Source: Salinimonas chungwhensis DSM 16280 (GTDB lineage: Bacteria > Pseudomonadota > Gammaproteobacteria > Enterobacterales > Alteromonadaceae). From it: a DNA stretch of 64,000 nt. Of this stretch, positions 3,581 through 35,496 are shown one piece after another; the first letter of the stretch is position 1, and each line of letters starts with the position of its first letter. The stretch spans positions 1-64,000 of the forward strand of contig NZ_KB899385.1 in the NCBI RefSeq assembly GCF_000378185.1. Direction: 5' to 3'. The notes beneath the pieces were generated by a model that was not told the DNA's origin, made no database searches, and saw only the letters and a program-made list of their open reading frames with translations. A program made the translations under genes and the position numbers.

Positions 3581-3605
3581 AAAAGGGGCTTTCAAGCCCC
3601 TTTCT
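3581..3605. terminator. Bidirectional terminator between hns-like and icmB
   Basis: GGGGCTT, TC, AAGCCCC, flanked by A-run on the left and T-run on the right. Works for the plus-strand hns-like gene and for the minus-strand icmB operon ending at 3605. Confidence 0.85.
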
Positions 3606-15630: not shown

Positions 15631-15636
15631 ATGTTC

Positions 15637-17018: not shown

Positions 17019-17404
17019 GCAGGCATTGACTCGCTGCTATTTACCCATACGACACCGAGTTTTTTTAAATATTGAACACATGCATAAATGGCGAGTGCTT
17101 TTTCACCTTCACTTGCGTTGTTAAGAAAGCCTGTAAAGAGAACCTCTGACCTGTCTGAATCATCTGACTGCCCTTCAATCGGCAAGCTTACTTCCACATT
17201 ACCTGAGTTACCTGATAGCGAATCAGGGATTACATCAGCGTTTATTGAGCGAATAGTACCGGTTAAATGCGCTATAAATTGCGCCAGCATGTAGACACGA
17301 TTTTGCACGGGTATTTTGAAAAATGGTTCTTCCCAGTTTGCATTAACTCTAATTCCACCACTGGAAGGCTCTGCTACCTTCATACTTAAAACTAAAGATT
17401 TCAT
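17015..17404 (-). CDS. Unknown small protein heading the icmL-K-E operon
   Basis: 129 aa, no signal peptide or clear membrane helix. Good ribosome site (GAGGG) before the ATG. Its stop overlaps the next gene as ATGA. The first half is strand-rich (SLVLSMKVAEPSSGGIRVNA) and the second half helical (EGEKALAIYACVQYLKKL). No family recognised. Conserved position would suggest a cytoplasmic accessory of the DotI/DotJ complex, but this is inference. Confidence 0.65.
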   Translation of the reverse strand: MKSLVLSMKVAEPSSGGIRVNANWEEPFFKIPVQNRVYMLAQFIAHLTGTIRSINADVIPDSLSGNSGNVEVSLPIEGQSDDSDRSEVLFTGFLNNASEGEKALAIYACVQYLKKLGVVWVNSSESMPA

Positions 17405-17550: not shown

Positions 17551-18585
17551 ATGAAGACTTTAGTTTTAGTGGTTTGTATATTGGTGAGTATTCCTGCTTC
17601 AGTGTTCGCTGACACCTTTTCAGACTACCTATCTACCGCAGAGCGCAGAGGCAAGGGACTCGTTACCACTTACTTTGGCGCAGGCTCTTATGTAAAAAGC
17701 TTTAAGCAGGTCCCTGGTGGAGCATTTAAATTGGATGCTGTATCTAAAGAAGGCGAGTCTCTTTCTTTATTTATGCTTGGTGATTTCGAAACACTAATTT
17801 ATGGCCAGATGATCACGCCACACATAGCTGATAAAGCACAAGCTGGTGGACTACCGGTATTAGAGCAAATAGCAGAACGCAACAAAAAACGTATCAGCTT
17901 GAGGAAAAAAACAACCGAGTTCGTTGCAAAATACAGTGCCGGTACCGCGGCAGCATTGCTCAATGACGATAACTTTGAGAAAGACACTACTGAGCCACCA
18001 GCTGCACATTTAGCCACGCCCCAATCACAGAGTGAAGAGGAATCTGACAATGTAATCTTGGATAAAGTCAGGGGGTTACAACATGTACAGTTAGGCGAAG
18101 GAAACAGAGAGCTATTTTTGTTTATGGATCTTAACTGCCCCGCTTGCCAACAAGAATTACCTCACCTTATTGAGATGTCAGAATCCCGTTCAGTTAGCAT
18201 CAAAGTCATACCGGTTGCGTTTGTTAAACCACAAGATTCAACTGACAAAGCTATTCATCTTCTTAGCGAAACGAATTCAAAAGCGCGAATAGATAGGCTA
18301 AAGCTCCTTGCACAACGAAAATCATTTAGTCAGTTGGTCAGTGATAACAAGTCAGTGGTGAATATCAAGGCGGCACAAAGTCTGCAGCAAAACAATAAAG
18401 TTTTTAATTCACTTCCCAATATTGCCACCCCCTATTTTGTTGCAAATACCAGCTACGGATTAATAACCCGGGCTTTGGTTTCTGAAGCTAAAGTCGAGCA
18501 GTTAATTGATGCAATAACGCCGATTGCAGCACAGACAATGCAAAGTGACGGTCCGGCTGTATCCACTAACGCAGATGACATTTAA
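17551..18585 (+). CDS. DsbC/DsbG-like periplasmic thiol-disulfide protein
   Basis: 344 aa with a signal peptide (cleavage near SVFA). A thioredoxin-fold domain in the C-terminal half has the active site C196-P-A-C199 in LFMDLNCPACQQELPHL, like DsbC-type isomerases used by conjugative systems (for example TrbB or TrbI-type Dsb). The N-terminal half (about 25-170) could be the dimerisation part, followed by a low-complexity linker. Such a protein would help fold the Cys-rich exported transfer proteins encoded at 41-45 kb and the Cys pairs in IcmD and IcmG. Ribosome site AAGGG. First gene of a plus-strand unit with the next two. Confidence 0.78.
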   Translation: MKTLVLVVCILVSIPASVFADTFSDYLSTAERRGKGLVTTYFGAGSYVKSFKQVPGGAFKLDAVSKEGESLSLFMLGDFETLIYGQMITPHIADKAQAGGLPVLEQIAERNKKRISLRKKTTEFVAKYSAGTAAALLNDDNFEKDTTEPPAAHLATPQSQSEEESDNVILDKVRGLQHVQLGEGNRELFLFMDLNCPACQQELPHLIEMSESRSVSIKVIPVAFVKPQDSTDKAIHLLSETNSKARIDRLKLLAQRKSFSQLVSDNKSVVNIKAAQSLQQNNKVFNSLPNIATPYFVANTSYGLITRALVSEAKVEQLIDAITPIAAQTMQSDGPAVSTNADDI

Positions 18586-18618: not shown

Positions 18619-20121
18619 ATGGCAAATTTAATCGACGCAACGGACCCGTCCATTTATCAGTACGCCAAGCCCAATTGGGAGAGCGTGTACAGCAAATTTC
18701 AACCCTACGTGATGGCTTTGCCACAAGTAAAATCTGGGGGCGTTAGTAAGCAGCAGGCGAGCAACTGGCTTGAGGTAGGCGCCAAGCTGCTTAAAGAGTC
18801 AGAATTACGGAGACTTATGGTTGAAAGCTCAGGCTTCACCGCACGTGATATTCGAGCACTTTGGGCGCACAAACATAATGAGTATTACCCAAAGTACGAA
18901 GCAACTGAGGTTTATCGTCAAAAGCAACTAACCGCTATTCGCACCCCTGATGTTGCACTGCAGGATGAGGGTTTTCTAAAAGCTGTATTGCGCCAGGTGG
19001 CAATGGAAAAATACGGTTTTTCAGACGTTCAAGACGTTGTAAGTTCGCAATCAGCAAACCAATTAGCTAACCGGATTCCTTGGGCAGTCAAAAAAGACGT
19101 GCTACTTGGCCAGATAGATAACACGATTTTCACCTATGACGTAAAAGTTGGTTATGAGCAGACACTAACGCATTCAGACAGCATACGTCATCACTTCAAC
19201 CATTTAGCGCTTGCCGATAAGAATATTGAGTCAGGCCACAGCGACCAATACAACTTTTCTGTTTCACCAGAGCTGACAAAAACAATTACAGATCTTGCCA
19301 AGCAGAAAGGCGACGGTTGGCGCCTGGCAATTGAGCTTGCAAAAAGCGCTGAAAAAATGGGGATTGGGGTAGATATTTCGAAAGAGCGCATCTCCCCTAC
19401 CCCGGAAATATTTCAAACGTTATTAACCGTTGGCAATGAGCACTGGGCAAATATCAAAAACGGGGTTCAGCCCACTTTTCAGGCAAAAATTGAATCAACA
19501 TACACCCCAGAAGAAGCAACAACTTATAGACAACTCGCTCAACAATATACTGTTTCTAAAATGGCCAAAGAAGTTGCAGAGGAGCAATTTAACCATACGC
19601 GCGATGAATTAACTCGCTTGGTAGGAATAGAGCGAGCAGGAACAGCTACGCCGCATCCTCTTGTAGCGGCATCCGGTAAGAGCAACTTTGACATAGCATC
19701 CGCGGTTAACCGTCTTCAAAGCCAAGGCGTTCCAGAAGATTTCTACAAGTCTGCGACTTACGACATTGATGCCCTTGTTAAAGCGGCTGAAGCAAGTGGC
19801 GTAGATACAAATCAATACAAGTCATACGGACAAGCAGATAAGAGCAAAGTATTAAGTTCTCTTGAAATGGTTGGCATCAGTAAGGACGCCTTCACCACGC
19901 GAGACATTCACATCCATTTCACCAGTCAGACCCGTGGCGTTTTAAGCGAAGTTAAGTCACAGGCGCGAAACCTGGTTGAGACACATTATGAAGCGATGAA
20001 AACGAACGTCGCTAACAACGATTTACTTAAAGCAGATTCCATCTCGAAAAAGCTTCAACCGCAAGAGCCAGTCGAGCTCAAGGAAGCAGTCGACGAACAA
20101 AATACATTAAGCATGGGCTAA
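18619..20121 (+). CDS. Unknown 500-aa soluble protein ending in SMG
   Basis: 500 aa, no signal or membrane segment, mostly helical, with charged and glutamine-rich stretches and no recognised catalytic motif. It lies 33 bases after the DsbC-like gene and 3 bases before the giant gene, so it is very probably co-expressed with it. Its last residues (NTLSMG) resemble the ends of the next two products (NQPSMGM and NNTDMGMN), hinting at a shared C-terminal signal. An accessory or partner of the polyvalent protein is the simplest guess. Confidence 0.7.
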   Translation: MANLIDATDPSIYQYAKPNWESVYSKFQPYVMALPQVKSGGVSKQQASNWLEVGAKLLKESELRRLMVESSGFTARDIRALWAHKHNEYYPKYEATEVYRQKQLTAIRTPDVALQDEGFLKAVLRQVAMEKYGFSDVQDVVSSQSANQLANRIPWAVKKDVLLGQIDNTIFTYDVKVGYEQTLTHSDSIRHHFNHLALADKNIESGHSDQYNFSVSPELTKTITDLAKQKGDGWRLAIELAKSAEKMGIGVDISKERISPTPEIFQTLLTVGNEHWANIKNGVQPTFQAKIESTYTPEEATTYRQLAQQYTVSKMAKEVAEEQFNHTRDELTRLVGIERAGTATPHPLVAASGKSNFDIASAVNRLQSQGVPEDFYKSATYDIDALVKAAEASGVDTNQYKSYGQADKSKVLSSLEMVGISKDAFTTRDIHIHFTSQTRGVLSEVKSQARNLVETHYEAMKTNVANNDLLKADSISKKLQPQEPVELKEAVDEQNTLSMG

Positions 20122-20124: not shown

Positions 20125-23100
20125 ATGAACTTGAATAAAGATTTTATTACGCTGCAGATAACTGGACATAACGTCGAGAAAGGATATATCTATGGCATCC
20201 TAAAGGACGGTAGCGATGCTAAGTTAACGCTGGTTCAAAACAAGAACAGTACTGCACAAAACTTTGTTTCTGCATTGTCAGATAGCTCAGCCAAAACCTA
20301 TGCTCCCGTGGGCGCCCATATAGTCGCCTATGGTATAAACACTATTAATGCGGACTCTGGATTTATTTCTGCTAACTTTGCCTCGGCAGTGACCAAGAAT
20401 CCGGAACAAAAACATACCTTTGTTACTCCCATTAAAGTAGACAGAAAGCCTGTTGCACGAGGAAACGGTAATAATCGGTTCCTAACGCTTGGTGCAAGTG
20501 TTCTTGATGCAGATTACACCCGCTTACAAAACATCAAAGGTCTCAGGAAAGAGCTAACCGATGTTCTTCGAGGTTCATCTAACAAATCCGTTCCCGGATA
20601 CTCACGTGGGTTCATGGTTCGTGTTGGGCATACACAACCTAACGGTCAAAAAGCAGTTGTACCGTATGAGTTTTATGCCTATCCAAATGAAAAAGCCTCA
20701 GATGCGATACAGCGTTTGTATGATGAAAACGGCGGGGATAATAAGTTTCGCAGGATGCTTGCGCGACTTAACCGAGAAATTGGGAAAGATAACGCTGTGA
20801 TCGAGGCTGCCGGAATAAGTCGGGTAAGTTTTAATGACTATGGCAATCCCAATAACCTAAGTAAATACGCCAATGCCCAGCATTATAAAGCGAAGATACA
20901 AGGTCAAGTACGCCAAGCATATAGCATGGCCGCCATTTCAATCAACAAGCAGATAAACCGCATTGATTCTGCTCATCCGTTGCCACGAGCTAAGATTCAA
21001 AACTCAGTGAGCGGGTTACTCGGTATTCATAATGATATCGATGCCCCGTCATTTAACAGCGATACCCCTGGCACAGCAAATAAATCTCTTTCTGCGGGAA
21101 TCAAAGGTTACCCATTACGAATTGAGCAACAACTAGATAGCAGCGGCCGGCTTTCTCGTTTTGCTGTCACAGGGCCTCGTACCGAGTTGGATAATTATAA
21201 AAGCCGTATTGAGTCTGCGGCTGTCGGCGTTAAGCCATTTTATAAAGAGGATACTAATAGCTACATATTCCCCGCTATTGCTTATAAGGAAGTGGCAAGC
21301 ACATTATCCGACCTCTCCGGTACCCCGGCAATATACATCAGCGAACAAAAAAAAACCGGAAAAGCCAGTTACATTTATATTAATGGTCGAACTGATGAGC
21401 AACCGTTTCGTAAGCGAATTTCTAATGTTGCTAAAAATCTGTCTGGAGAAAACGTAGGGGGAGCCTGGCGTTTTCCTGAGAAAAACCGCCTTCAAGTAGA
21501 AGAACAATTGGGCGATTTGCTATCTCAAAGTGCAAGACCTGAAACTGCGATAGAAAAAAAGTTTAAGCCTCGCTTCCCGGATTATGCTGAATGGCAACAG
21601 CAAAAGTATAGCTTGTCAGGCAATTCAATGAAGGACGCGCATTACGACCAAATTGAAAAATATGCTGAAGAAGCAGGAATTGATTGGGCTAAAACCGCTC
21701 CGAATATATTAATGCCATCTCCGGATACCGGAACAGAAATGTTCCTTAGTAACGCCAGCCAAAAAGACGTTTTTCCAAAGCAAACTGCCCATAATGGGAG
21801 TTGCTCTGTCATTGCTTCTACGTACCGTTACAAATCCAAGAAAACTGATAAAGAACATCTTGGAATTTACCTACAGTTTAAAAACTTGAAGATGGGCGGC
21901 GGAGAATTTTTCACTGAGTTTAAATCAGGGGATTATGACTTCAGCCTTTACGAAAGTGAGCGTGGAACAGGAAAAGTAAAAACAGGTGGTAGCTCACCCG
22001 AGGAAATCGCCAAGCGAGAGGCTGATAACCAACAGCGACTCGCAGAAAAAGCCAAACGAGAAGCTGAACAGACTAAAAAGTCATTGCAGGATGCATTGAT
22101 GACCTGGGGGCAAGGCATTCAAGCAACCGGTAACGAACCCTACAATGTTAAAAAAGGCTTGCAATCACATATTGAATTAATTGACCTTCGCACGGCGAAA
22201 ACCCCTAGCGGCAGCACATTTAGCATGTATCAGCTGGTGGATGAATATGGCAATTTCACCGGACTTCAAAAAATCTATGACAAAGGCTGGAAAGATGAGA
22301 AGGGTCGGACAACGAATAAGGTGTTTACAGAAGGGACGGTCTTTAATGACTTAGATACTGGAAACCCTGTAGGCACCCACGGAAGAGTTGGCATTGATGA
22401 TGGTATCAGACCAATAGTTTATGCCGAAGGCATGGCTGATACTCTCTCTGCAGTGGCTGCGACGGGGCATTTTGGAAAGATAGGCATTAATAAGAACAAC
22501 CTCAAATCTGTTGTCGCTGTTTCTGTCCACAACAATCCAAATCGTGATCATATTGTTGTGGGTGATAACGATCGTGCACATAAAGACGGAAACATCGGCG
22601 CAAAAGCTGCGTTGGATGCTGCTTGGCAAAACAACGTGAAATGGATGATTCCTAATTTTGAGGGAATGGATCTTTCCAGCGACCCGAAAGATATCAACGA
22701 CCTGCATCATCTGGCGGGCCTTGAAGAAGTCCAGCGCCAGATAGGAGCTGCGTACCCTGCACCACAGAACCTACTTGAATATTATAATACCCGACTTCGG
22801 TTCGAGAACGACAAAACCTACCCTGCTGCATTTGAAAAGGCGCTCAAAGAAATTACTGAGCGATACCCTCAAATGGATAAAAGCCGCATTGAAGCAGGAT
22901 TAACATTCAAAAGAACTGAGCAAAATAAGTATCAGTCTCAGGTTAATGACAGTCAAACTAAATCAGAGCGAAGTGAAAAATCTGAATCCGAGTCAACTGA
23001 ATCGACCGAAACCGATGATGTTGTCAGCGAATTTACAGCCCAATTCCCTGTAGTAATCGAGGAGAAAGTTGCTCCTCAGTCACAAAAAAAATATCTGGTT

Positions 23101-26100
23101 ATCCGCGACCATTCAAATGGCGTTTATGCAGATCCTATAGCTACAGCAATTGAGGAGTGCATGCCTGGTAAGCAGGCTATGTATCACCCTGGACTTAAAA
23201 GCTATGTAGCGCCAGCGTCACTTAAAAATGTGTTAAATAGCAAACTACATGAGGCAACCGGCGCCCCCGCGAATTATATTGGTAAACGTTTAAATACCGA
23301 AGGGCCGGGGTTCGTGGTACGCGGTGAGCTTACCCAAGAAGTTATCGATGATTTGGAAAGCACCATTGGATTTATCAATGGCTACTTTGATAATGCAGAG
23401 CAAGGCTTTGTTGTAGAAAATGACTTAGCCATTTACCTGGTTCAGGAAGCATTGGGTAACCGACTCACTGGTAGCCATACACCCGCTTCATTTACAGCAA
23501 GTGCGACTGAATTCAAGCCACAAACGCTTGTTGATGGAAGCCTTGAAAACCGTGCTAAAGAGCTTGGCCTTAAGCCTTCAGACATAGCAAAAATGCAGGC
23601 CTTTTTGATTGTGAAGGAAAAAGGGCTTCCGCAAGACGGCTATTGGTTCGCTGGATTATGCGCAAAAATAAAACAGTCCGAACAAGCCAATGGACAAAAA
23701 GCTTCATATTCGAGTTTGCTACACAAGGCTTATCATCAGGCATCAAGCCTATTTGCTTCTGACACTTACTCTGATGAGCAGTTCATTGCTGCCGCACCGG
23801 TATGGTACTTCCTTGGCGATAAATACGATTGGACCGGCGTACAAGAAGATGAAGCTTCAGAAAATACAGATAAGCAAGAACAAGACGTTTTACCTGCAGA
23901 GCCTGTCCAAAAACCAGAAATAGAATCAACGCCAGAAAATGTCAGTACAGAAACCGTTAGCACTGAGCGTACTTCTAATAACGCAGCACCGGGGGTTGAA
24001 AGCGAGAAACCAGAAAACACCGTAGAGCCAATAGAAGAATCTCAAAGCATTGAAGCAACAACTAATGCGAATTCGAAGTCTAATGTGACGTCTTCTGAGG
24101 TGTCTCCTCAAAGTGATTTGTTTGGGTTTATATCAGAGCAAGAGGAGAAAAATGTCTCCAATGCTGTCGAAGCGACTATTCCCAGTGTTGAGAATAGCAA
24201 TAGTGTCAAACGTGAACCTGTTGAACAGCCTTTAGAAAGCCAAGATGCAATTAAGCAGGGAGATAGCGAGAAATCTACTATTGGAAAACAGGAGGATACT
24301 TCTGAGCATGACACTACTGAGGCTTTAGAAGACGTACAAGAAGCCAGCTCTCAAGAAGTGAATGAGCAAGCAATATCCGAAATTGAGCTTAGGATACGAA
24401 AGCTCAATGACACTATTACCTTGCTTGTCGAAAATGGTTATTCACATGATGAATTTCTGGATCTAGTTAGTGACTCTCCAGACTGCATTGGCTACGAAAA
24501 AGAAGACGGCAGTTTTGATAAAACCCTATTGCAAGCAGACTTTCGTCAAATATCGCTGCACCCTATCCCGGATTTAGCCACCTTCAAGCCAACCTCTTTA
24601 TCTGCGGCTTACTATCACACCTACAATATAGTTAGCGACAACAGGATAAATGAACTTAAGGCATTCATCAGCGAGTTGATGGAAACAAAGGGGGCGTTAT
24701 CCGAGAAGAGCTTCACTAAATACATTAAGGGCAAAACTTCGAGCAAAGGCTTTCAATCTACCCAGCCATACCTTAGTGATGGTGAGTTTAATGAAGAGTT
24801 GATGAATGAAGATATATTGCACGTCACTGAATACAAACACGTTAACGAACTATATCGTGATATGCGAGAGCTGTTTAAGCGTGACCTTGCAAATGAAGAA
24901 GTTGATTCTCAAGAGTCAGAGCCGTCAGTCACAATAACACTTGAAGGTCAAAAACAGTCTGCTACAAGACTGCATGATTCTGGCAAAGCGTCTCTATTCC
25001 AGACGGATGAAACCGGTGAATACATTATACAAACCGGCGATAAAATCGAGCTGGCCACTATCGAAAACATCAAAAATGCCGGCTCTGAATCAGAACCACT
25101 CATGCTTGATAAAATTCAAGGTGAGGGCAGAGGAATGTACGTAGTAACGAAGCCTGATACAAACCGTGTTTTTTACACAAGCTTTGGCGATGCTACAGCG
25201 CTCTACCGGCGATTAGAGGCCTCGATAGTTGATACAGACGACAGTGATGTATCAAGCTCTGTGCAACCTACAGCCACACAGATACAGCAAACGTTATCAG
25301 CTTACTTCAGCGACCAAATCTCTATTGATGAAATCGTTAAGCGTGTTGAGCAAAAATTCAATGTTATTGTCGATGAACCTACAAAGAATATAATTTCATC
25401 TGCCTTTGATAAACATAGTGAAAGTTTTAGTGACAAACCCGTTTCCCAGTCTGAGAAGCTTAGTGCGTTACAAAATGAAATGGCTACCCGTGCAAAAACT
25501 GAAATGCTTTTTCACGAATTCTACGAGGACCACTTCAAACCTGAAGGTTTCGCTTATGAGGAAAATCCATTCTTTTCTAATGAAACAGGGAGCATCGATC
25601 GGAAATCGCTAAATGCATCGCTTAAAGATGCCGGTTTTAACTCTCTCAAGCAGATGTATCAGGACATATTTGACAGTGTCGTTGAGATTACTCATGACCA
25701 TTACACCGCTACCAAAGTGGGCGGATTTATTCCAAACGCTGGCTTTAAGAAAGACATTGATCTTGAAGTCCAATTTGAAAACCTGCTAAAGGTTGTGCGC
25801 CGCGCAGAGCCGACGACCGCTGATTCTCAGTTACTCCCCTTTACTGATTACTTGGGCAGTACAAACGCTTATCAACCGATTAATCAGATTCAGGGCGAAC
25901 CCTTAGATGCTATTGCTGAACCGGGAACCACAGACAAATATTCGCTTGATGAGTATTTGCTTTTGGCTGATCTTCATCATGTGGCCGATGTCAGCGCATC
26001 AAACTCTAAAGTAGAAATTGCTGAAAAGATTAAGGCGACTTGGAAAGTGAGGAAAGAACTGACTTTCATGTCGGAGACTGAAATAGCGGCGTTAGATATC

Positions 26101-29100
26101 CCAACTTTGCAAGAATATGCTGAGATACTTAACGTCAGTACGACCAGCCACAATAAGATGTATGCGCGGAAAATCGTGGAAAAACTGGTTGAGCTAAAAG
26201 ATGCTACTCATACGAAAGTTGCTCAATATAATTATATAGCCGATGCAGTTTCAAGCCTCGATAAAAATGTTGCTCTGCCTGGATACGTATATCGAGACCT
26301 TAGTAATATTACTGATAGCACAGTACTAAATATCAGTCAGGTCACCCAATATAAGCGCAAACAATTTGATAACGCTAAGATAAGAACCGAACTTGCAGAC
26401 TCGCTAAAAAGCATCAATCTGCTTAGCCCAGAAACGCGCGGAGTGTTGAGCAACGTAGATTTGAGCGATGCTTATGTGGTCGGTATTGAAGAAGCCAAGT
26501 ATGCTTCCAAAGCCTACACATATTCAATTCCAAAAGGTACACATATAGATAAAGTTCAACTCCCTTTGGACGTTTCATATCATACTGTAATAAACGACCA
26601 ACTACTTGGGCTAAATAAACCACTCGACCAATTCTGGATAGCACAGCATGGCTATTCACCTGTTTCACCCAAAGCGATGAAGGCACTGTCTATACCAGTT
26701 GAGAAATTCGTGGAGTCGACCGGCTATCTTGGATTTCGTGACGCGAAAGGTAATAGTGCTCTAATTCGTCCAGCAAAGCGGGGCTTTTCAGCAATTGAGT
26801 ACGATGAAGCAACAGGGGAAGTTAATACAAGACGCTTTCAGTACACAAGTGAATTCGTAGAATTATACCGTGCCAAAGGCTACGAATTTTCTGACTTGGA
26901 TCCGATTTTGGATGAACTTGCTCTAGATGAATCAGCAGATAAGGTTGAACAGTTAGCATTCATCCGCAATTTACAAGATGGCGGCCTAACCAATGATCAA
27001 ACAGATCAACTTGCCTCCCTCCTCACAGATGAAATCGAGGCAACGGCGATACAGAAAGCAGTGGTTGCCTTATCCCGGATTGAAGCATCTCTTAAACAAT
27101 CGATTACTGAGAAACTAACCCACGTGGCTCAGTCTATACCGATCAACATAAATGCGAACTACCCTTCCACCATCACTGCTTTAAAAGAAGCCAAGCAGAT
27201 GCAAGCTGAGCCGGTTATGGCTGAAACGAATCCAATTGCAGAACAAGCGATAGTTGAAACTCCAGAGCCGCAAGCCACCGTCAGTGGCGGCTTATTCGAT
27301 ATGTTGGACAGTGATGCGCCAATCGATAAAATTTCAGAGGAAGCTGAAATTGCCGCTGTAAATGAAATAGGTGAAGGCAAGCTGGTGGTTCACTCAAGCG
27401 GTCGAGTCGGTGTTGTCAGTAACGTTGACGGCGAACAGGTCACGGTTAAACCGGACTGGGAGTATAGAATTCTCCAATCAGCTTCAGCGCGTGACTCATT
27501 GATTGATAAAGAGTCGGGCCGATATATTTTTACCTTAGAAATGTCCGAGTTTGCTAAAACAAAAGATGCATTAGCTTTAGACATTGATATTGATTTGCTA
27601 GACCCTCGAGATGCTAATGGTATCGCACGAATTGAATCGATGCCCCTACTCCATTTAAAAGAGTTCAATAGCATACTCGCCAATGACACCAGCTCTAATG
27701 ACAGAAGTGTGCTCGCTGGGAACGCAGTTTCAAAAGTGCAAGCCAGAACAGCGGGTAGACTTTTCGCAACGGGCGACTCTGAATTAGTTCAAGAAAATGA
27801 GTTGGCAGCACTTAAACATTTTGCCTCACCTGACGATCCATCAGAAGTTATCCAGTGGTACGGTGAAGAGCTCAAAAAAACAAAGGCTAATGTATTAAGC
27901 CGCAATTTTGAAAAGGCGCTATCAAAGGCCGTTGAGTTTGGATTCGAACCAGGAATGGACTCAACTCATCTGACCGTTTCTGCAGCAGACCTTGATATAG
28001 TAAACGAAGCAACTCTATTGAAGTTGGCCAGCACCAGCACTCTTAGTGAAATTCTCAATCAGCAAAGTCCTGAAAGTCGCTATATTGCCACTCGCCACGT
28101 GAGATTTGATGAACTTGAAAGTTCTGAAAAAGATGTGATTCTCCATGGTGATGTACGCATTAATTTTATCGGCGATAAGGTATCTTATTCAACGAGCGAC
28201 GGAAGCACTTACCCATCTCTTAATATGCTGTTAGACCATCACGCTACCCAAGAGACTGAGCCAGTTTTCCATGCTGGCCAAGAACTGGTTTTAATTGATG
28301 GTGAAAATGTAACAATTGAGGTTGTCGCTGAAGATACTTACCCTGAAGATGGCACCGTTATGCTTGGTGAAGAGTCGCCGACAGCACACAGAATTGAATC
28401 AGTATTTGAGTATGACTTTCGTGAAGTAGAAGCCAGAAGTCGCCAATTCTTCGATAATGCTAACGGAACTATCAAGCAATTACTAAATCAGCCTTTTAAA
28501 AATGATAATAACGACGCCAATATTAAGGATTTTGCTTATAACAAGATGGCTGAAACATCAGTCAGATCTATGCTTGAAGAGATAGAAGCAAATGGCCAAC
28601 ATGAATTTATGGGCTATGAGCTTTATATTGCAGAAAATAAGTACAGTTATATTGATGAAACACAAAAGACTGATCCATTCGAAACCATTGCCAATGCTCA
28701 AGAAGCGGTACAGACCTTAGTTAATCAAGCTCGTGAGGAAGAACAAAATGCAGATGCAGAGAGACATAGAGACATACATGATGACGTTTTGTCCGGTTCA
28801 GCAGAGCCAATTGCAAGCGACCGGCAAATGGGAGGAATGGCTGAAGAACAAAACGCAACTATTGCAGCTACAGCTAACCAAGAAGATAGAGGCTCTAGAG
28901 TCGACGACTCCGCCTCCACAGGGGACAGACTATCACGAGCAGGTAGCGTACCATCAGTACATAAAGGACCAAGCAATGCAGGGAGTGCTCAAAGAGCACC
29001 TACCAGCGAGCGAACTGTAACCTATTCTTACCCAGATAATCTTGAAGACAACATTGGTACTTTACCTAAGAAAATTGAGCTGAACATAGAAGCGCTGCGC

Positions 29101-32100
29101 ATTAGCAAGCTCATCGATGAGGAACAGCGTGAAGCGACTTTAGAAGAAAAAGATGCTCTTGCCCACTACACAGGCTGGGGTGGCATGCCCGGCATGTTTG
29201 ATCATACGAACTACCTGTATTCCCAACAACGCAGGCAACTAACAGAGTTAGTTTCTGCACAAGAGTACAGCTCTATTAAAGAATCTGCATTGACCGCCTT
29301 CTACACGCCGCCCTCTATTATCAAGGAGGTTTATTTTGGCGCTAGTAAATTCGGCTTTGTCGGGGGAGAAGTTAGTGATCCTTCTACTGGAATTGGCTCA
29401 TTTTTGTCAACGATGCCCGAAGAGCTTAAAGAAAACTCAAACGTTACAGCTCGCGAGTTAGACACAGTTACAGCCCGTATAGCTCAGCAAATACACGGAG
29501 AGAAAATCGTCAAACAAGGTGGCTTTGAAAAGACAAAGCAACCTAACAATTATTTTGACTTGATAACGTCCAACATTCCTTTTGGAAATTATTCTGTATT
29601 TGACCCTGACTATGCACAATATGGATATAAAATTCATGACTATTTTCTTGTCAAAAATATCGATAAGGTCAAGCCTGGAGGGATAGTCGCATTTATAACT
29701 TCCACAGGCACCATGGACAAAGCTGATGATGCTGCTCGTCAGCACGTTTATAAGTCATCAGACTTGGTTGCTTCAGTCCGACTCCCCTCAAAAACATTCT
29801 CAAAGTATGCAAATACTCATGTAGGCGCCGACGTTGTATTTTTTAGAAAGCGTCTGCCCGGAGAGGAGCCTTTAAGCTCAGACTGGCTAAACACTGAGAC
29901 TATTGATGCTGAGGATAGAAATGGCGATATCCATACTCACAGTATCAATGGCTATTACGTGAAGAACCCTCAAATGATAATTGGCAATACGGTTTCTGTG
30001 CGAGGACAGTATGGCTATGAGCTTTCAAGCTTATACGATGGCAATGTGGCTGAAGCTTTACACAGTGCTCTTGAAGGCGCCCCATCTCCAAAGCCTACCC
30101 GCAAAAAGGATGCTTCCATTGTTATTGAGGAAACGAAGAGTGAGGAAACTATCACGCTGATAGATGACCACCTTCGCCCTGGCTCATTTACGATGGCTGG
30201 AGATCAATTAGGAGTTGCTGTATCAACTTATAATCCGGAAACAGAGGATTATGATTTAACGTTCGAGCCAATCAATGTCAAAGGTAAGAAGGCTGAAAGA
30301 CTATCAAGCTTGATAGGAATTCGAGACCATCTTCGTGCGCATATTAGTCTGCAAATGCAAACGACTGGTATGCCTGAAGAATTGGCAGAATCTATTACGA
30401 GACTTAACACTCTTTATGACCAACATGTAAAGAAATTTGAGAACCTGAGCGAGAGCACTACAAAGCAGGCCTTTCAGGAAGATCCTGATTATCCCCTTCT
30501 AATGGGTCTTGAAATCGTTGATAAATCAACTCAAAAAATTGTCAAGACAAACGTATTTAGCGAAAGAACGATCGGCAAAAACAGTCGCCCAACCCATGCT
30601 GATAGCGCAGATGAAGCTTTTGCTATATCGATGGCGTGGGATGGAACGATAACCCCCTCATTTGTTAGTGAACTTCTTGGCAAGAACTGGGAACAAATCA
30701 CCGAAGAAAACGTGGGCACGTTGTTTGTTGACCCAAGCCAAAACAAGTGGGTACACCGCTCGCAGTATCTTTCTGGAAATATTCTTGAAAAACTTGAAAG
30801 TGCGAAAGCTGCAGTAGAGTTAGATTCTAGTTTTCAACAAAACGTAGAAGCGCTTGAAGAAGCGATGCCGGAGCCGGTTCTTGCAGAAGAAATTAAGTTA
30901 CGTTTGGGTAGCGGCTGGGTTCCTACTGAAATTATAAGCCGGTTTACTGAAATGGTTATTACAGGAGAGTCCTCGCCATTTCCTGGTGAAGCAAACCCTA
31001 ATTTCAAAGTTTCGCTTATAGGTGCAGATTGGCAAGTCGGGGTAAGCGACTGGACTATCTCTCAAAATGACGGGCGGGCGCGAAACAGGTACGGCACGGA
31101 ACGTATTAGCGCATCTGAGCTAATTCAAAAGGTGCTAAATGGTAGTAAAATTGAAATCTGTGACACTGTTGAAGACAAGCGAGTTGTTAATATAGACCAA
31201 ACTGCAATTGCTAACTCTAAAGCACAGGATATCAAAGAGCTATTCAACAGTTGGGTCTGGAACGACCCTGAAAGAAAGGCGCTATTAACGCAGGTCTACA
31301 ACAACAGATTCAATGTATTTGTAGAAGCTAAATATGATGGTTCTGGTATTCAGTTCACAGGTCTAAGCCCAACTTTTAATGGGAAGCCGTTTACACCTCG
31401 TCAAACACAACGCAATACGATTATGCGTTACTTTCAAGAAGGGCGGGCGCTTTTAGCACATGGTGTAGGTACCGGAAAATCATTTGAATTGGCCTCAATT
31501 GCAATCGAAGGGAAAGCCCGTAATTTACATCAAAAGCCAGTTGTAGCGGTGCCAAACAACGTTTTTGGTCAATTGAGTCGCAGTATTCAACAACATTATC
31601 CTAACGCTAGGATCCTGAGCCTTGACCCTAAGAAAATGAATAAGACGCAACGCCATGAGTTAACCAGCAAAATTGCGACCGGGAACTGGGATTGCGTGGT
31701 TGTAGCCCATAGCACATTGGATAAGCTCAGCGCACCTAAGCAGTTCGTTGACAATCAGTTACAAAAACAAATCTGGGAGCTACAAAGTGTAATAGATAAT
31801 CAGGATAGCCAAGGTACATTTACAAACAAACGCGCCCAGCAAAAATTGAAAAACCTGGAAACAAAACTTCAGAAAAGACTCGACCAGGATTCAAAGGACA
31901 ACGTGCTTTACCTTGACCAGTTAGGTATAGATGCCTTGCTGGTGGATGAGGCTGATAACTTTCTTAACCTCGGCTCACCTTCCAACATGGCTCACGTCAA
32001 CGGTGTGAACACGCAAGAATCTAAGCGTGCGATGAACATGTTATTTATGACTCGATTTATTCAGGATATGAATAACAACCGGGGCGTTGTATGGGCCACC

Positions 32101-33873
32101 GGTACTGACATCAGAAAGTCGATGAGTGACCTGTATGTAAATTTGTATGTATTGGCGCCTGATGAGCTTAAAAAACTTGGCGTAGATAACTTCGATGCCT
32201 TTATGTCAGTATTTGGTGAAGTAGTTACTACCATCGAAGCTAATCCAGAAGGAACCGGATATAGAGAAAACTCACGCTTGGCCAAGTTCAACAATTTACC
32301 TGAGCTGGGTCAGTTATATAGAACTGTCGCCGATGTCGTTACAGCTGAGATGGCAGGTGTGGAAAAGCCTGAGTCAACTAAGATTGGTGTCAAATGCCAA
32401 GGTAATGAATTCTTCTCAGCTTATATGAAAGACATAGGTAAGCGGGCTACCTCATTTCGCCAAGGCTCTAAAGAAGAAACCTGGTTTGCAATACAGCACT
32501 CTTCACAATTAGCAGCAATGGATATGCGCTGTGTTGACCCAACTATACCTGAAGCACCGGGCTGTAAAATTTCGAAAGCAGCTCAAAATATCTTGGCTGA
32601 ACATAAACCAGAAAGCGAGACACCCAGAGCCCAATTGGTATTTATTGACCGGTTTGTTAATCCAACTGCAGCTGGGTTTAGCGTGTATGACACTCTCATC
32701 GATAAATTAGTTGATGGGGGTATTCCTCGAGACAAAATTATCGACAGCCGGCAAGTTGTCAGTGAGTCCCAGAAAAAAGATTTTGAGGATGGCATGAATA
32801 GTGGCAAATATCTTGTTGCCATTGGAACCACTGAGCGATTTGGTGTTGGGAACAACATTCAAACGAACTTAGTTGCCATGCACGAATTGACTCCACCTTG
32901 GAACCCAAGAGACTTAGAGCAACGGTTAGGAAGAATTGAGCGCCACGGAAATTTAAACGATGAAGTAAATGTTTATCGGTATACCACCGAAAATAGCTTT
33001 GATTTGTTTCAGTGGGAGACAATGAAACGCAAAGCTTCCTTTATCATGCAAACTAAGCTGGAACCACACTTGGCTCCACGCGAATATACCGAAGAAGCAG
33101 ACGCCACTTACAGTGAAATGATGGCCATTGCTACTGGGAATACGTTGATCAAAGATAAAATAGAGGTTGATGCTGATCTGCAACGCTTAGAGCGTCTGAA
33201 ACGCTCTCACATAGATGGAAAGCGACAGATGCAAGGTTCTATTACTTATTCAGAAAGGTTCATTGTGACGCAGCATAAGCATCTTGAATTTATCCAGACA
33301 TTTATTGATAAGCTACCGGATAACTCGAGCTTTGAATTTGAAGGTAAGTCATTTGGTCAGGACCTGAAAGGTGGTGCAGAAGCCATAAAGTCTGTTTTTA
33401 AAAAGATGGAGGGTAATAAGTCACCTCAACTTATCGTGAATGCCGGCAAATTTGGTGATTTAGAGCTTAAATTTAGACTAGAAGAAAGATCTGATGGCAA
33501 AAAGGGATATACGCTGAAAGCCTACGTTGGCAAAGAGACTGTGAAAGTTTCAAATAACGCCTATGTTGGTGCACAATTATCAGATCTCCCTACCCTTTTA
33601 CCGCGACTTTTAGAGGAGAAAGAAAGTTGCCTAGCTCAGATCAGTAAAGAGGAAAATAGAATAGAAAGCCTTAAACAAGAGCTTCATCAGCCATTCGAAA
33701 AGGAATCAGAGCTATTAACGCTTACGAACCGTGCGGAGCAACTTAATAAGCAACTCCTACAAGCTGCTAATGAGGCATCTAATAATGACGATGATGTTGA
33801 TTGGGAAACTCTGCTGGGTGAACATAATCAATCGGAACATAACCTAACCAACCAGCCGTCCATGGGAATGTAA
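20125..33873 (+). CDS. 4582-aa polyvalent protein: Toprim, N6-methylase-like and SF2 helicase modules
   Basis: One uninterrupted 4582-codon frame. Visible modules: (1) two pairs of small beta-alpha units near 340-470 and 985-1120 of the type GFVVRGELTQE...GYFDNAEQGFVV; (2) a Toprim-like domain with YAEGMADTLSA at about 766 and VGDND at about 812, as in plasmid TraC-type primases; (3) long acidic linkers (about 1235-1420) and several unknown segments; (4) YTGWGGMPGMF at about 3015, TAFYTPPSI at about 3056 and SNIPFGN near 3148, an N12-class adenine-methylase-like domain with NPPF replaced by NIPF; (5) an SF2 helicase with HGVGTGKS near 3779, VDEAD near 3940 and QRLGRIERHGN near 4265; (6) a C-terminal coiled coil. 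Polyvalent proteins of phages and conjugative elements protect or process incoming DNA, and some are carried to the recipient. No signal peptide. Confidence 0.85.
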   Translation: MNLNKDFITLQITGHNVEKGYIYGILKDGSDAKLTLVQNKNSTAQNFVSALSDSSAKTYAPVGAHIVAYGINTINADSGFISANFASAVTKNPEQKHTFVTPIKVDRKPVARGNGNNRFLTLGASVLDADYTRLQNIKGLRKELTDVLRGSSNKSVPGYSRGFMVRVGHTQPNGQKAVVPYEFYAYPNEKASDAIQRLYDENGGDNKFRRMLARLNREIGKDNAVIEAAGISRVSFNDYGNPNNLSKYANAQHYKAKIQGQVRQAYSMAAISINKQINRIDSAHPLPRAKIQNSVSGLLGIHNDIDAPSFNSDTPGTANKSLSAGIKGYPLRIEQQLDSSGRLSRFAVTGPRTELDNYKSRIESAAVGVKPFYKEDTNSYIFPAIAYKEVASTLSDLSGTPAIYISEQKKTGKASYIYINGRTDEQPFRKRISNVAKNLSGENVGGAWRFPEKNRLQVEEQLGDLLSQSARPETAIEKKFKPRFPDYAEWQQQKYSLSGNSMKDAHYDQIEKYAEEAGIDWAKTAPNILMPSPDTGTEMFLSNASQKDVFPKQTAHNGSCSVIASTYRYKSKKTDKEHLGIYLQFKNLKMGGGEFFTEFKSGDYDFSLYESERGTGKVKTGGSSPEEIAKREADNQQRLAEKAKREAEQTKKSLQDALMTWGQGIQATGNEPYNVKKGLQSHIELIDLRTAKTPSGSTFSMYQLVDEYGNFTGLQKIYDKGWKDEKGRTTNKVFTEGTVFNDLDTGNPVGTHGRVGIDDGIRPIVYAEGMADTLSAVAATGHFGKIGINKNNLKSVVAVSVHNNPNRDHIVVGDNDRAHKDGNIGAKAALDAAWQNNVKWMIPNFEGMDLSSDPKDINDLHHLAGLEEVQRQIGAAYPAPQNLLEYYNTRLRFENDKTYPAAFEKALKEITERYPQMDKSRIEAGLTFKRTEQNKYQSQVNDSQTKSERSEKSESESTESTETDDVVSEFTAQFPVVIEEKVAPQSQKKYLVIRDHSNGVYADPIATAIEECMPGKQAMYHPGLKSYVAPASLKNVLNSKLHEATGAPANYIGKRLNTEGPGFVVRGELTQEVIDDLESTIGFINGYFDNAEQGFVVENDLAIYLVQEALGNRLTGSHTPASFTASATEFKPQTLVDGSLENRAKELGLKPSDIAKMQAFLIVKEKGLPQDGYWFAGLCAKIKQSEQANGQKASYSSLLHKAYHQASSLFASDTYSDEQFIAAAPVWYFLGDKYDWTGVQEDEASENTDKQEQDVLPAEPVQKPEIESTPENVSTETVSTERTSNNAAPGVESEKPENTVEPIEESQSIEATTNANSKSNVTSSEVSPQSDLFGFISEQEEKNVSNAVEATIPSVENSNSVKREPVEQPLESQDAIKQGDSEKSTIGKQEDTSEHDTTEALEDVQEASSQEVNEQAISEIELRIRKLNDTITLLVENGYSHDEFLDLVSDSPDCIGYEKEDGSFDKTLLQADFRQISLHPIPDLATFKPTSLSAAYYHTYNIVSDNRINELKAFISELMETKGALSEKSFTKYIKGKTSSKGFQSTQPYLSDGEFNEELMNEDILHVTEYKHVNELYRDMRELFKRDLANEEVDSQESEPSVTITLEGQKQSATRLHDSGKASLFQTDETGEYIIQTGDKIELATIENIKNAGSESEPLMLDKIQGEGRGMYVVTKPDTNRVFYTSFGDATALYRRLEASIVDTDDSDVSSSVQPTATQIQQTLSAYFSDQISIDEIVKRVEQKFNVIVDEPTKNIISSAFDKHSESFSDKPVSQSEKLSALQNEMATRAKTEMLFHEFYEDHFKPEGFAYEENPFFSNETGSIDRKSLNASLKDAGFNSLKQMYQDIFDSVVEITHDHYTATKVGGFIPNAGFKKDIDLEVQFENLLKVVRRAEPTTADSQLLPFTDYLGSTNAYQPINQIQGEPLDAIAEPGTTDKYSLDEYLLLADLHHVADVSASNSKVEIAEKIKATWKVRKELTFMSETEIAALDIPTLQEYAEILNVSTTSHNKMYARKIVEKLVELKDATHTKVAQYNYIADAVSSLDKNVALPGYVYRDLSNITDSTVLNISQVTQYKRKQFDNAKIRTELADSLKSINLLSPETRGVLSNVDLSDAYVVGIEEAKYASKAYTYSIPKGTHIDKVQLPLDVSYHTVINDQLLGLNKPLDQFWIAQHGYSPVSPKAMKALSIPVEKFVESTGYLGFRDAKGNSALIRPAKRGFSAIEYDEATGEVNTRRFQYTSEFVELYRAKGYEFSDLDPILDELALDESADKVEQLAFIRNLQDGGLTNDQTDQLASLLTDEIEATAIQKAVVALSRIEASLKQSITEKLTHVAQSIPININANYPSTITALKEAKQMQAEPVMAETNPIAEQAIVETPEPQATVSGGLFDMLDSDAPIDKISEEAEIAAVNEIGEGKLVVHSSGRVGVVSNVDGEQVTVKPDWEYRILQSASARDSLIDKESGRYIFTLEMSEFAKTKDALALDIDIDLLDPRDANGIARIESMPLLHLKEFNSILANDTSSNDRSVLAGNAVSKVQARTAGRLFATGDSELVQENELAALKHFASPDDPSEVIQWYGEELKKTKANVLSRNFEKALSKAVEFGFEPGMDSTHLTVSAADLDIVNEATLLKLASTSTLSEILNQQSPESRYIATRHVRFDELESSEKDVILHGDVRINFIGDKVSYSTSDGSTYPSLNMLLDHHATQETEPVFHAGQELVLIDGENVTIEVVAEDTYPEDGTVMLGEESPTAHRIESVFEYDFREVEARSRQFFDNANGTIKQLLNQPFKNDNNDANIKDFAYNKMAETSVRSMLEEIEANGQHEFMGYELYIAENKYSYIDETQKTDPFETIANAQEAVQTLVNQAREEEQNADAERHRDIHDDVLSGSAEPIASDRQMGGMAEEQNATIAATANQEDRGSRVDDSASTGDRLSRAGSVPSVHKGPSNAGSAQRAPTSERTVTYSYPDNLEDNIGTLPKKIELNIEALRISKLIDEEQREATLEEKDALAHYTGWGGMPGMFDHTNYLYSQQRRQLTELVSAQEYSSIKESALTAFYTPPSIIKEVYFGASKFGFVGGEVSDPSTGIGSFLSTMPEELKENSNVTARELDTVTARIAQQIHGEKIVKQGGFEKTKQPNNYFDLITSNIPFGNYSVFDPDYAQYGYKIHDYFLVKNIDKVKPGGIVAFITSTGTMDKADDAARQHVYKSSDLVASVRLPSKTFSKYANTHVGADVVFFRKRLPGEEPLSSDWLNTETIDAEDRNGDIHTHSINGYYVKNPQMIIGNTVSVRGQYGYELSSLYDGNVAEALHSALEGAPSPKPTRKKDASIVIEETKSEETITLIDDHLRPGSFTMAGDQLGVAVSTYNPETEDYDLTFEPINVKGKKAERLSSLIGIRDHLRAHISLQMQTTGMPEELAESITRLNTLYDQHVKKFENLSESTTKQAFQEDPDYPLLMGLEIVDKSTQKIVKTNVFSERTIGKNSRPTHADSADEAFAISMAWDGTITPSFVSELLGKNWEQITEENVGTLFVDPSQNKWVHRSQYLSGNILEKLESAKAAVELDSSFQQNVEALEEAMPEPVLAEEIKLRLGSGWVPTEIISRFTEMVITGESSPFPGEANPNFKVSLIGADWQVGVSDWTISQNDGRARNRYGTERISASELIQKVLNGSKIEICDTVEDKRVVNIDQTAIANSKAQDIKELFNSWVWNDPERKALLTQVYNNRFNVFVEAKYDGSGIQFTGLSPTFNGKPFTPRQTQRNTIMRYFQEGRALLAHGVGTGKSFELASIAIEGKARNLHQKPVVAVPNNVFGQLSRSIQQHYPNARILSLDPKKMNKTQRHELTSKIATGNWDCVVVAHSTLDKLSAPKQFVDNQLQKQIWELQSVIDNQDSQGTFTNKRAQQKLKNLETKLQKRLDQDSKDNVLYLDQLGIDALLVDEADNFLNLGSPSNMAHVNGVNTQESKRAMNMLFMTRFIQDMNNNRGVVWATGTDIRKSMSDLYVNLYVLAPDELKKLGVDNFDAFMSVFGEVVTTIEANPEGTGYRENSRLAKFNNLPELGQLYRTVADVVTAEMAGVEKPESTKIGVKCQGNEFFSAYMKDIGKRATSFRQGSKEETWFAIQHSSQLAAMDMRCVDPTIPEAPGCKISKAAQNILAEHKPESETPRAQLVFIDRFVNPTAAGFSVYDTLIDKLVDGGIPRDKIIDSRQVVSESQKKDFEDGMNSGKYLVAIGTTERFGVGNNIQTNLVAMHELTPPWNPRDLEQRLGRIERHGNLNDEVNVYRYTTENSFDLFQWETMKRKASFIMQTKLEPHLAPREYTEEADATYSEMMAIATGNTLIKDKIEVDADLQRLERLKRSHIDGKRQMQGSITYSERFIVTQHKHLEFIQTFIDKLPDNSSFEFEGKSFGQDLKGGAEAIKSVFKKMEGNKSPQLIVNAGKFGDLELKFRLEERSDGKKGYTLKAYVGKETVKVSNNAYVGAQLSDLPTLLPRLLEEKESCLAQISKEENRIESLKQELHQPFEKESELLTLTNRAEQLNKQLLQAANEASNNDDDVDWETLLGEHNQSEHNLTNQPSMGM

Positions 33874-33997: not shown

Positions 33998-34648
33998 ATG
34001 TCTTATTCAAAGAAAATTAATCCAATACTGAAGCTGTGTCCATTTTGTGGCAGGCGGCTTACCTATGGGTCGTTAGATGATGGTATCAATACCTCCTGCA
34101 AGTGTGGATTTGAAGAGGCACCCGGCTCTCTTTATATTCTTCAGCACCTATCAGATGTCGTTTCTGAGTACACCCAACTCAAGGGAATAACTACGCTACA
34201 AGGTGTTGGCCAAGACAGATACTCAGTTAGCAAAGGGTTTGCTCTTGGCTGCTACGGTTATTTATCAATACTTCAGAAACGAAACGAAGCGATGGTTTTT
34301 GGTGCAAGCGCACAGTCAGCGCTATTTCAAGGCTCTGACTTATTTAGTGTTGTTGAAAGCTCAAAAGGTGTGCTTGGTGAACGTCTTTGCCTGAATATGC
34401 ATGACTACGAGCCAGATGTAATTAAACATCTATTTATCAATCAGCTTATTAGTTTGACCTATGTGATTGATGAAACGATGAATATCAGTAAGCAATCATC
34501 ATTGGAGCGGTCACCAGACACCATCTACATCGAAGATGTGAAGAGTCTTGAAATACACTTACCGGCTAAAGCAACAGTAAAATCAGCACACAAAGAAAAT
34601 GCCCCATCGCAGTTGAGTCTGAACAACACTGACATGGGTATGAACTGA
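33998..34648 (+). CDS. Unknown zinc-ribbon protein heading the coupling-complex operon
   Basis: 216 aa. An N-terminal zinc ribbon (CPFCGRRL at about 14-21 and CKCG at about 34-37) is followed by a globular helical domain without known motif and a disordered tail ending NNTDMGMN, similar to the ends of the two preceding plus-strand products. Start: ATG 33998 preferred over GTG 33989 because it begins the regular reading MSYSKKIN right after a hairpin; neither has a good ribosome site. Its stop overlaps the next ATG as TGATG. As the first gene before icmP and icmO it may bind the coupling complex or load substrates. Confidence 0.7.
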   Translation: MSYSKKINPILKLCPFCGRRLTYGSLDDGINTSCKCGFEEAPGSLYILQHLSDVVSEYTQLKGITTLQGVGQDRYSVSKGFALGCYGYLSILQKRNEAMVFGASAQSALFQGSDLFSVVESSKGVLGERLCLNMHDYEPDVIKHLFINQLISLTYVIDETMNISKQSSLERSPDTIYIEDVKSLEIHLPAKATVKSAHKENAPSQLSLNNTDMGMN

Positions 34649-35496
34649 TGAATTCAGCAGTACAAGATGCTATTGCTTTAGCACTACGTGAGCAATGTTT
34701 GCCTAATGAGATTGAAGATGCCAATGAAGAAGCATCTGCAATTCATCAAAATGACAGTCCTTCTTTAGACCAAAATAAGTCGCGACCTGCGATTGACATA
34801 AGGCGTTCATTTAATGGACTTCGAGTAGGACTACCACTAATAAGTGCCGCCCTGAGTACTTCTGATGAACCTGATGAAGCTCTGGAGCAGATGATGAAGC
34901 TAATCAGAAACCTATCAATAGAATTAATTGGGGACTTGAATGGAAACATTAACCCCGATGACGCCGGGCAAAAGTCAGCAATACTAAGAACTTTAATTTT
35001 AAAAAGCGTAGAGTCTGCGGCCATTAACGATCGACTTGAAGATATTAACGAAAAAACACTCGTGACTCTTATAAACCAAGTGCTTTGTTTAACCGATGTA
35101 ACCGAACAAACAGGGAACAACGTTAGTCATTTTAATGCTCATTATCTCATTTCAACCGGTTTAACAGCAAAAACCTTCATCGACTCCGAGTCCGAATTCA
35201 AAAAGCACACTAAAGCTCTGTTAGATATAACTCATCAGGCGTTTAGCGAAATGCTTAAATACGAAATTGACAACAGTCAATTACAATTTATTCAGCAAAG
35301 TTTTCTGGTTGATTTATCAGCGCTTTATAAACGCATAGTTGAAGACGAAACAAGAAAAAAGAAAGCTGAAACACTAAGTTCCGAAGGTGAGAGCTTGTCA
35401 TTAGTAAAACTTATCGAGAGTCATTATAAGACTTATCTTTGTGGTGTAGTCAACGCAGCAATTAAAAATGCGGAGGTTCGCAATGACAATATTTGA
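34648..35496 (+). CDS. Unknown helical protein of the icmP-icmO operon
   Basis: 282 aa, soluble, acidic and almost wholly helical, no known motif. An N-terminal disordered stretch (about 15-50) precedes a helical core. It overlaps the zinc-ribbon gene by one base and the next gene by 14. IncI plasmids have an unrelated gene (trbB) in the trbA-trbB-trbC coupling operon, and Legionella uses small adaptors (IcmS, IcmW, LvgA) on DotL. An adaptor role here is inference from position only. Confidence 0.65.
   Translation: MNSAVQDAIALALREQCLPNEIEDANEEASAIHQNDSPSLDQNKSRPAIDIRRSFNGLRVGLPLISAALSTSDEPDEALEQMMKLIRNLSIELIGDLNGNINPDDAGQKSAILRTLILKSVESAAINDRLEDINEKTLVTLINQVLCLTDVTEQTGNNVSHFNAHYLISTGLTAKTFIDSESEFKKHTKALLDITHQAFSEMLKYEIDNSQLQFIQQSFLVDLSALYKRIVEDETRKKKAETLSSEGESLSLVKLIESHYKTYLCGVVNAAIKNAEVRNDNI

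Follow-up and report, generated by a model that had tools for sequence, protein, structure and literature searches.

The 64,000-nucleotide stretch of DNA that we analyzed (hereafter the window) covers positions 1 to 64,000 of contig NZ_KB899385.1 of Salinimonas chungwhensis DSM 16280, itself 145,076 bases long, and it raises the question of what a single protein of 4582 amino acids (aa) might do among the genes of a conjugation machinery. The gene occupies positions 20125–33873 of the plus strand, has no internal stop, and codes for a giant of ~510 kDa (pI 5.1) in which a Toprim primase, an adenine methylase, and an SNF2-type motor are combined. The reading that we favor, with a probability of roughly 0.6, is that it serves an IncI/Dot-Icm-like conjugative element as a polyvalent transfer protein, delivered to the recipient cell, where it would prime and protect the entering strand. 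Because one chain carries both primase and DarB-type modules among transfer genes, it is simplest to suppose that both jobs are done in the recipient. As the initial annotation had proposed, the giant corresponds to a polyvalent protein as passages of Iyer et al. 2017 (PMC5512222) describe them: unlike domains (primase, methylase, and SNF2) are held in one chain, and the gene lies beside genes of a type IV secretion system (T4SS), virion genes being the other typical neighborhood.

The uninterrupted frame is neither a chance event nor an assembly artefact, since five plasmid records annotate versions of the giant (4561–4764 aa) and the frame is also open in two further loci that stop within the gene, after 4473 aa in Salinimonas profundi and after 4506 aa in Pseudoalteromonas sp. 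0303. Over the whole gene, the ratio of non-synonymous to synonymous substitution rates (dN/dS) was 0.083 in the comparison with S. iocasae and 0.115 in that with S. profundi, values that indicate purifying selection. The window giant has no HExxH motif; the A. stellipolaris version has two.

The C-terminal 1600 residues are, on profile and motif evidence, a DarB-type LPD36–adenine-methylase–SNF2 unit. The profile phrog_10089 (“DarB-like antirestriction”) matches aa 2858–4553 with 1133 bits; the Pfam signal is weak, with Eco57I and Helicase_C found in six of seven family members and SNF2 in two of the seven. Passages of PMC5512222 describe the DarB dyad as an LPD36 domain with GxGU, TP and NPP(Y/F) motifs, and an SNF2 ATPase. 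In the giant, the LPD36-type domain (aa 2966–3045; 29020–29259, on the plus strand like all parts of the protein) has profile matches in phage giants, carries GWGG (the GxGU motif) at aa 3017–3020 where the aligned homologs read GxG(G/A/S), and lies N-terminal to a gamma-class adenine methylase domain (aa 3050–3300; 29272–30024) with TP at 3061–3062, DPSTG at 3085–3089, and NIPF, a form of N-x-P-(F/Y), at 3150–3153. Fused C-terminally is an SNF2-type ATPase of helicase superfamily 2 (aa 3756–4310; 31390–33054) with intact motifs (GVGTGKS, DEAD, and QRLGRIER), followed by a C-terminal region (aa 4320–4582; 33082–33870) common to the DarB-like open reading frames (ORFs) of viral contigs. The Toprim, methylase, and helicase motifs (Walker A, DEAD, and motif VI) named in the initial annotation are thus all present and conserved. 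Across the family, motif I, TP, and N..PF vary little or not at all, and the methylase core follows the motor among the most strongly conserved parts of the giant: its 380 codons show no non-synonymous change against S. iocasae and a single one against S. profundi.

The same annotation had singled out NIPF as an anomaly against the usual NPPF, a view that did not hold up. We compared 15 outside homologs that had not been picked by motif, namely nine plasmid records chosen for spread from 60 listed of 2000, three genomes, the phages JC1 and Y7, and one annotated darB, counting duplicate gene copies once and dropping a Chryseobacterium plasmid fragment in which motif IV could not be read. They read NPPF in eight cases, NVPF in five (including the annotated, P1-type darB), NIPF in one, and NPPY in one; within the giant’s own family, NIPF occurs in five of six lineages and Pseudoalteromonas has NVPF. 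As N-V/I-P-F is found in 6 of the 15 homologs and NIPF in five of the six lineages, the variant is, to judge from these alignments, an ordinary one. Accounts of NIPF as the unusual sign of a dead or a new methylase were accordingly rejected. Viral loci gave 81 NVPF and six NIPF in 87 rows (seven of them not viral), a biased count, because these loci were mostly seeded on N[IV]PFG, which 76 of 80 carry.

At the other end of the chain, a Toprim primase module (aa 481–880; 21565–22764) contains EG at 768–769, DND at 814–816, and DIND at 856–859, with its core at ~650–870. Residues 622–884 match the DNA primase profile phrog_2249 (E 3.6e-22), and residues 501–875 match CyRepA1 plasmid replication proteins and the replication proteins of N15 and phiKO2 (24–28% identity among the matches listed); by tblastn, replication/primase proteins of N15, phiKO2, and VP882 likewise hit this module. 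It is homologous to the primase part of Sog of ColIb-P9 (hhalign 96%, E 2.6e-9; blastp E 2e-4) and to a protein of 1557 aa whose gene takes the place of sog on pDC3000B (hhalign 98%, E 6e-14). Despite this common Toprim module, the giant is not a Sog ortholog by domain content, because the LPD7 and DUF5710 domains of Sog are missing from it. Upstream of the primase, the profiles of the N-terminal region (aa 1–330; 20125–21114) match only the giant’s own family in the fetched loci.

Between these two ends lies a middle region in which the initial annotation could name no module over more than 1500 residues, and that description stands for the libraries searched: the middle gave no convincing match to Pfam, NCBIfam, or PHROG families or to PDB sequences, nothing outside the giant’s family matched it, and neither the JC1 giant nor the fetched viral loci contained it. 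It does contain internal repeats, which we found by hhalign self-comparison of the family profile over 2278 window pairs (E values are per comparison). Two copies of a module A (aa 331–441, 21115–21447; aa 976–1086, 23050–23382) flank the primase and match each other with E 2.2e-10; module B has a first copy at aa 1422–1474 (24388–24546) and a third at aa 1777–1834 (25453–25626), matching with E 3.4e-7. Types A and B (copies 1 and 3) are clear repeats that hold up once the 2278 comparisons are taken into account. Two further candidates do not: a possible second copy of B (aa 1503–1570, 24631–24834; E 4.3e-5 against copy 1, ~0.1 over all 2278) and a possible helical module C (aa 1904–2014, 25834–26166, and aa 2471–2577, 27535–27855; E 1.4e-4, ~0.3 over all) are only suggestive as repeats. 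By eye module C seemed SAP-like, and 1 of 36 fragments matched SAP_new25 with E 0.18; neither this nor matches of the middle to LPD14 (E 0.13–0.21) and to EF-hands (E 0.07) are strong enough to be claimed.

The middle as a whole is conserved and mostly under purifying selection, with dN/dS values against S. iocasae of 0.06 for aa 1416–1900, 0.15 for aa 1901–2370, and 0.32 for aa 2371–2960. A polar linker (aa 1241–1415, 23845–24369; 76% STEQNDKPG) has 2 synonymous and 14 non-synonymous changes in the same comparison, so that no constraint is visible, the changes being too few to say more. The domain and structure search suggested with the initial annotation leaves the region without a fold: AlphaFold models of aa 1416–2365 from three sequences had a mean predicted confidence (pLDDT) of 45 and no usable fold, the first copy of module C being the best-modelled stretch (pLDDT ~70–80), and searches with this poor model by Foldseek (best E 0.07) and VIA (best Z 5.6) carry no weight. 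The probable role of these ~2000 residues, whose partly repeated modules are specific to the family, is to bind DNA or partners.

A further property of the giant is its scarcity of cysteine. It has 10 cysteines where 35 would be expected from the neighboring ORFs (Poisson P 6e-7), and all seven family members tested were low (P 6e-14 to 0.02), although the sequences are related and the tests therefore overstate their independence. Cysteines are few in the giant, in Sog (1 in 1255 residues), and in the longest ORF of most DarB-like viral loci, against ~0.7–1% in other ORFs; the phage giants of JC1 (4515 aa) and Y7 (4675 aa) have none. In the viral-contig loci (79 of the 80), the DarB-like gene, taken to be the longest ORF of each without being verified singly, had a median of 0.09% cysteine against 0.73% pooled in the other ORFs, and it was the lower of the two in 37 of the 41 loci having at least 600 aa of other ORFs. 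P1-type DarB and the pDC3000B protein are moderately low (0.32%). Cysteine scarcity would fit translocation, for which it is not specific; a thin literature search, judged by title and start of abstract, returned no earlier report of it in such proteins.

The genomic context is that of a type IVB secretion system (T4BSS). A divergent block on the minus strand (10527–17404) codes for proteins like DotG, DotH, and two DotI and for a 129-aa ORF, with NCBIfam scores below the equivalog cut-offs and DotH above its Pfam cut-off; near-identical genes of a S. iocasae plasmid are annotated as DotG, DotH, DotI, and the TraM-recognition (coupling) protein. On the plus strand follow a Dsb-like gene, a gene for a 500-aa protein, the giant, three ORFs, and then a DotM/TrbA-like gene and a TrbC/DotL-like coupling ATPase (36123–39897; 2e-44 and 1e-73, below equivalog cut-offs, with TraG-D_C above its cut-off). 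This order is kept on the plasmids plas12, pAMDE1, pGLAAG01 (where the genes are annotated “hypothetical”), and pASTE61-200. Teredinibacter differs by two insertions downstream, of a topoisomerase III gene and a lytic transglycosylase gene, and by additional genes within the DotG-DotH block; in Pseudoalteromonas, the upstream ORFs, compared by size and order, agree. Topoisomerase III genes occur both directly downstream of the Teredinibacter giant (34292–36469 of its locus) and near a Dsb-primase pair on a Citrobacter MPF_I plasmid (27973–29979 of that locus). The protein in the DotG/IcmE position (10527–14813 in the window) varies in annotated length from 1391 to 2131 aa across plasmids, and plas12 has an IS30 transposase (44179–45129 of its locus) where the window has ORF 43358–44440, with a shorter flanking gene.

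The closest companion of the giant is the 500-aa gene (18619–20121, plus strand), which ends 3 nucleotides before the giant’s ATG. The distance is −1 to +11 nucleotides in six loci and +15 in Pseudoalteromonas, and of 72,556 plasmid records none has the gene except the nine with the giant; it also occurs in 4 of 98 relatives, including the genome studied here, while a sample of 369 genomes from the class had it once, again in the same one. Tried as its homologs, the 510-aa virion protein beside the DarB gene of JC1 (hhalign 1.2%) and a 710-aa Citrobacter plasmid protein gave no match, and its AlphaFold model is too poor to use (pLDDT 38). The zero cysteine content of this protein means little, because five other ORFs in the window have none.

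Before it lies a gene for a 344-aa DsbC/G-like protein with a CxxC motif (17551–18585, plus strand; DsbG model 8e-9, below its cut-off; F-type TrbB model E 0.032). The CxxC is present in all six aligned sequences; on pAMDE1, which is outside that alignment, its place is annotated as two short genes, one for a thioredoxin-domain protein of ~160 aa. The initial annotation had considered the coupling of the giant with a Dsb protein and the 500-aa protein unusual. The Dsb part of this claim is weakened by two precedents. According to passages of PMC6112013, TrbB of pCTX-M3 (IncM) has a thioredoxin-like domain, and its homologues, except that of IncI1, are putative disulfide isomerases; ORF 17551 has such a fold with CxxC, the likeness to TrbB of pCTX-M3 being one of description. 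It is also homologous (93%, 2.9e-7) to a Dsb protein of the MPF_I plasmid p.S175-1.4 whose gene adjoins that of a primase. The primase did not match that of the giant, and the DarB-like protein of this plasmid (2293 aa) has a gene of its own. The 500-aa part of the claim was strengthened by the exclusive pairing with the giant.

The nearest relatives of the giant are in Salinimonas, with 98–99% identity to the S. iocasae plasmid plas12 (348 kb) and 98.6% to S. profundi; others are on pAMDE1, pGLAAG01, pASTE61-200, and Teredinibacter Bs12_MP (plasmids of 249–341 kb) and on one Pseudoalteromonas contig. Six divergent lineages thus carry the giant, each with the 500-aa gene adjacent, and share 25–47% identity over aligned positions, highest in the motor and the methylase. 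The family is rare within the databases searched. In a tblastn search of the plasmid records with the giant’s first 2792 residues, at least 80% was covered in 6 of the 239 records having any match and 58–72% in three more; these nine records represent five lineages, six of the records being Alteromonas plasmids, of which five are nearly identical. The N-terminal profile had two confirmed loci in genome contigs and none in viral contigs. It matched in 59 of 394 genomes of the order, where matches outside the giant’s own genome do not extend beyond the primase module and its edges, and the profile of aa 1416–2365 matched 1 of 398 genomes of the phylum, namely its own; as the samples of order, class, and phylum were drawn evenly from larger groups, other known carriers can be missed. 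Two open frames of 3467 and 3584 aa with Toprim matches (157037–157372 and 215132–215467) on one contig of another genome are possibly further giants of another type.

The contig that contains the window is likely self-transmissible. PLSDB classifies pAMDE1 as conjugative (MOBP, MPF_I), and passages of PMC5217437 describe a conjugation core common to pAMDE1-300, pASTE61-200, and pGLAAG01; the passages of that paper on these plasmids do not mention the giant. They describe pASTE61-200 as having an incomplete T4SS; its giant, its Dsb-position gene, and its 500-aa gene are annotated at full length.

From these elements a mechanism can be proposed. The giant, possibly together with its co-encoded 500-aa partner, would pass through the T4BSS into the recipient when cells mate; there its Toprim part (~481–880) would lay primers on the incoming single strand. 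Once the strand is double, the SNF2/methylase part (~2966–4582) would travel along the DNA and modify it or shield it against restriction. We infer translocation, priming, methylation, and antirestriction from precedents of both halves: Sog proteins are reported to enter recipients in passages of PMC6112013 and PMC8406263, and P1 DarB, according to passages of PMC9024508, is packaged in virions, is believed to reach the inside of the cell, and appears in a list as an inhibitor of EcoK and EcoB.

Several observations weigh against this reading. The giant’s translocation has left no direct sign, and the literature passages on DarB do not report methylation by it. LPD7 was absent from Pfam scans of the giant and six relatives, as was DUF5710 from those of the giant; an LPD7 search of whole records also gave no match, in the controls as well. 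The gene flanks the DotI-DotH-DotG block on the side where ColIb-P9 and pDC3000B have their sog-type genes. Those are co-directional with the block; the gene of the giant is divergent from DotI, in an orientation opposite to that of sog, and separated by the Dsb and 500-aa genes; nor does it adjoin a recognizable TraL gene, the 129-aa ORF beside DotI having no match to TraL by blastp, the only method used. PLSDB classes the other four related plasmids as non-mobilizable, and neither PF03432 nor NikB detected a relaxase in the giant’s own genome or the five plasmids, in searches that are insensitive because they also missed the MOBP relaxase that PLSDB reports for pAMDE1. The cysteine signature has exceptions too: NikB has 1.9% cysteine, the Citrobacter primase 2.1%, and the separate DarB-like protein of the MPF_I plasmid 0.74%, and the ORFs of the window without cysteine, besides the 500-aa one, are DotH, two DotI, a T2SSE-type ATPase at 50520, and ORF 39979.

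Could the giant instead stay in its own cell? It might be a resident defence or restriction-modification protein against phages, its methylase and motor working as in DISARM or BREX, and the C-terminal part of its helicase indeed matches DISARM DrmD (8e-7) and a phospholipase-D-type antiphage family (2e-9). These matches span only 36 and 80 residues and reach 27.7 of 610 and 36.3 of 1100 bits of the respective cut-offs, where the DarB-like profile covers ~1700 residues; moreover, no nuclease family turned up in the domain scans, and the protein is fused to a primase and sits among transfer genes, all of which makes this explanation improbable. Hardly more credible is a mainly vegetative role in replication, as primase or translocase in the manner of N15 RepA or CyRepA1 with the methylase-like part positioning the protein on DNA. 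The similarity of aa 501–875 to those very proteins is what one would expect from it, but proteins in the sog position match the primase module too, conservation of the methylase core is second only to that of the motor or close to it, the gene lies among conjugation genes on annotated plasmids, and three of the five plasmids have a replicon type in PLSDB.

An alternative closer to the proposed mechanism keeps protection and gives up catalysis: the NIPF methylase would be inactive, and the giant would coat or move along the entering DNA and keep restriction enzymes off by steric hindrance. Compatible with such a scaffold are the non-proline residue at the second position of motif IV, the silence on DarB methylation in the literature passages, and the large, partly repetitive middle. 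The near invariance of motif I, TP, and N..PF in the family and the NxPF variants across homologs argue against it, and we regard it as unlikely.

Returning to delivery with priming and protection, a more specific version of it is conceivable, which we put forward tentatively and would not be surprised to see fail: the giant and its 500-aa partner might be a dedicated delivery pair that replaces Sog and combines priming, protection, and probably strand organisation in a channel-compatible, cysteine-depleted chain. Cysteine depletion might then mark polyvalent proteins that cross envelopes, by T4BSS or phage ejection, as opposed to resident look-alikes, and, if it survives the exceptions seen, would offer a cheap filter for delivered proteins. 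If the favored reading is true, one translocated protein of ~510 kDa carries both the start of replication and the antirestriction of a conjugative megaplasmid, and the injection of polyvalent proteins and their action in the recipient become testable in marine Alteromonas hosts. The conserved, unnamed middle, ~2000 residues long, gives structural studies a defined region to aim at.

Among known systems, the giant shares with DarB of P1 and the DarB-like phage giants the LPD36–adenine methylase–SNF2 unit and the C-terminal region, and the giants of JC1 (gp69) and Y7 are likewise very large and cysteine-poor; passages of PMC9144972 report gp69 in virions. Unlike the giant, DarB-like phages showed no Toprim match among the best 30 of 38 matches, and their genes lie among virion genes, whereas that of the giant lies among T4BSS genes. 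SogL of ColIb-P9 (IncI1) and the LPD7 protein of the P. syringae plasmid pDC3000B resemble it in their Toprim module, their flank of the DotI-DotH-DotG genes, and their few cysteines. They are much smaller (1255 and 1557 aa against 4582) and co-directional with traM where the giant is divergent; Pfam scans find LPD7 and DUF5710 and no methylase or SNF2 families in Sog, the reverse of the giant. The polyvalent proteins of conjugative elements treated in passages of PMC5512222 share with it the union of unlike domains in one chain beside T4SS genes. As that paper names both Toprim primases and the methylase-helicase dyad as polyvalent themes, the kind is known. Its main text does not contain the names Alteromonas and Glaciecola, so the giant’s family seems untreated there, and it was the only paper on topic, by title and start of abstract, in our search on DarB or polyvalent proteins with primase or Sog and conjugation. 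We therefore rate the polyvalent kind and the plasmids as already known, and the fusion of a primase with a DarB-type unit in this family as new.

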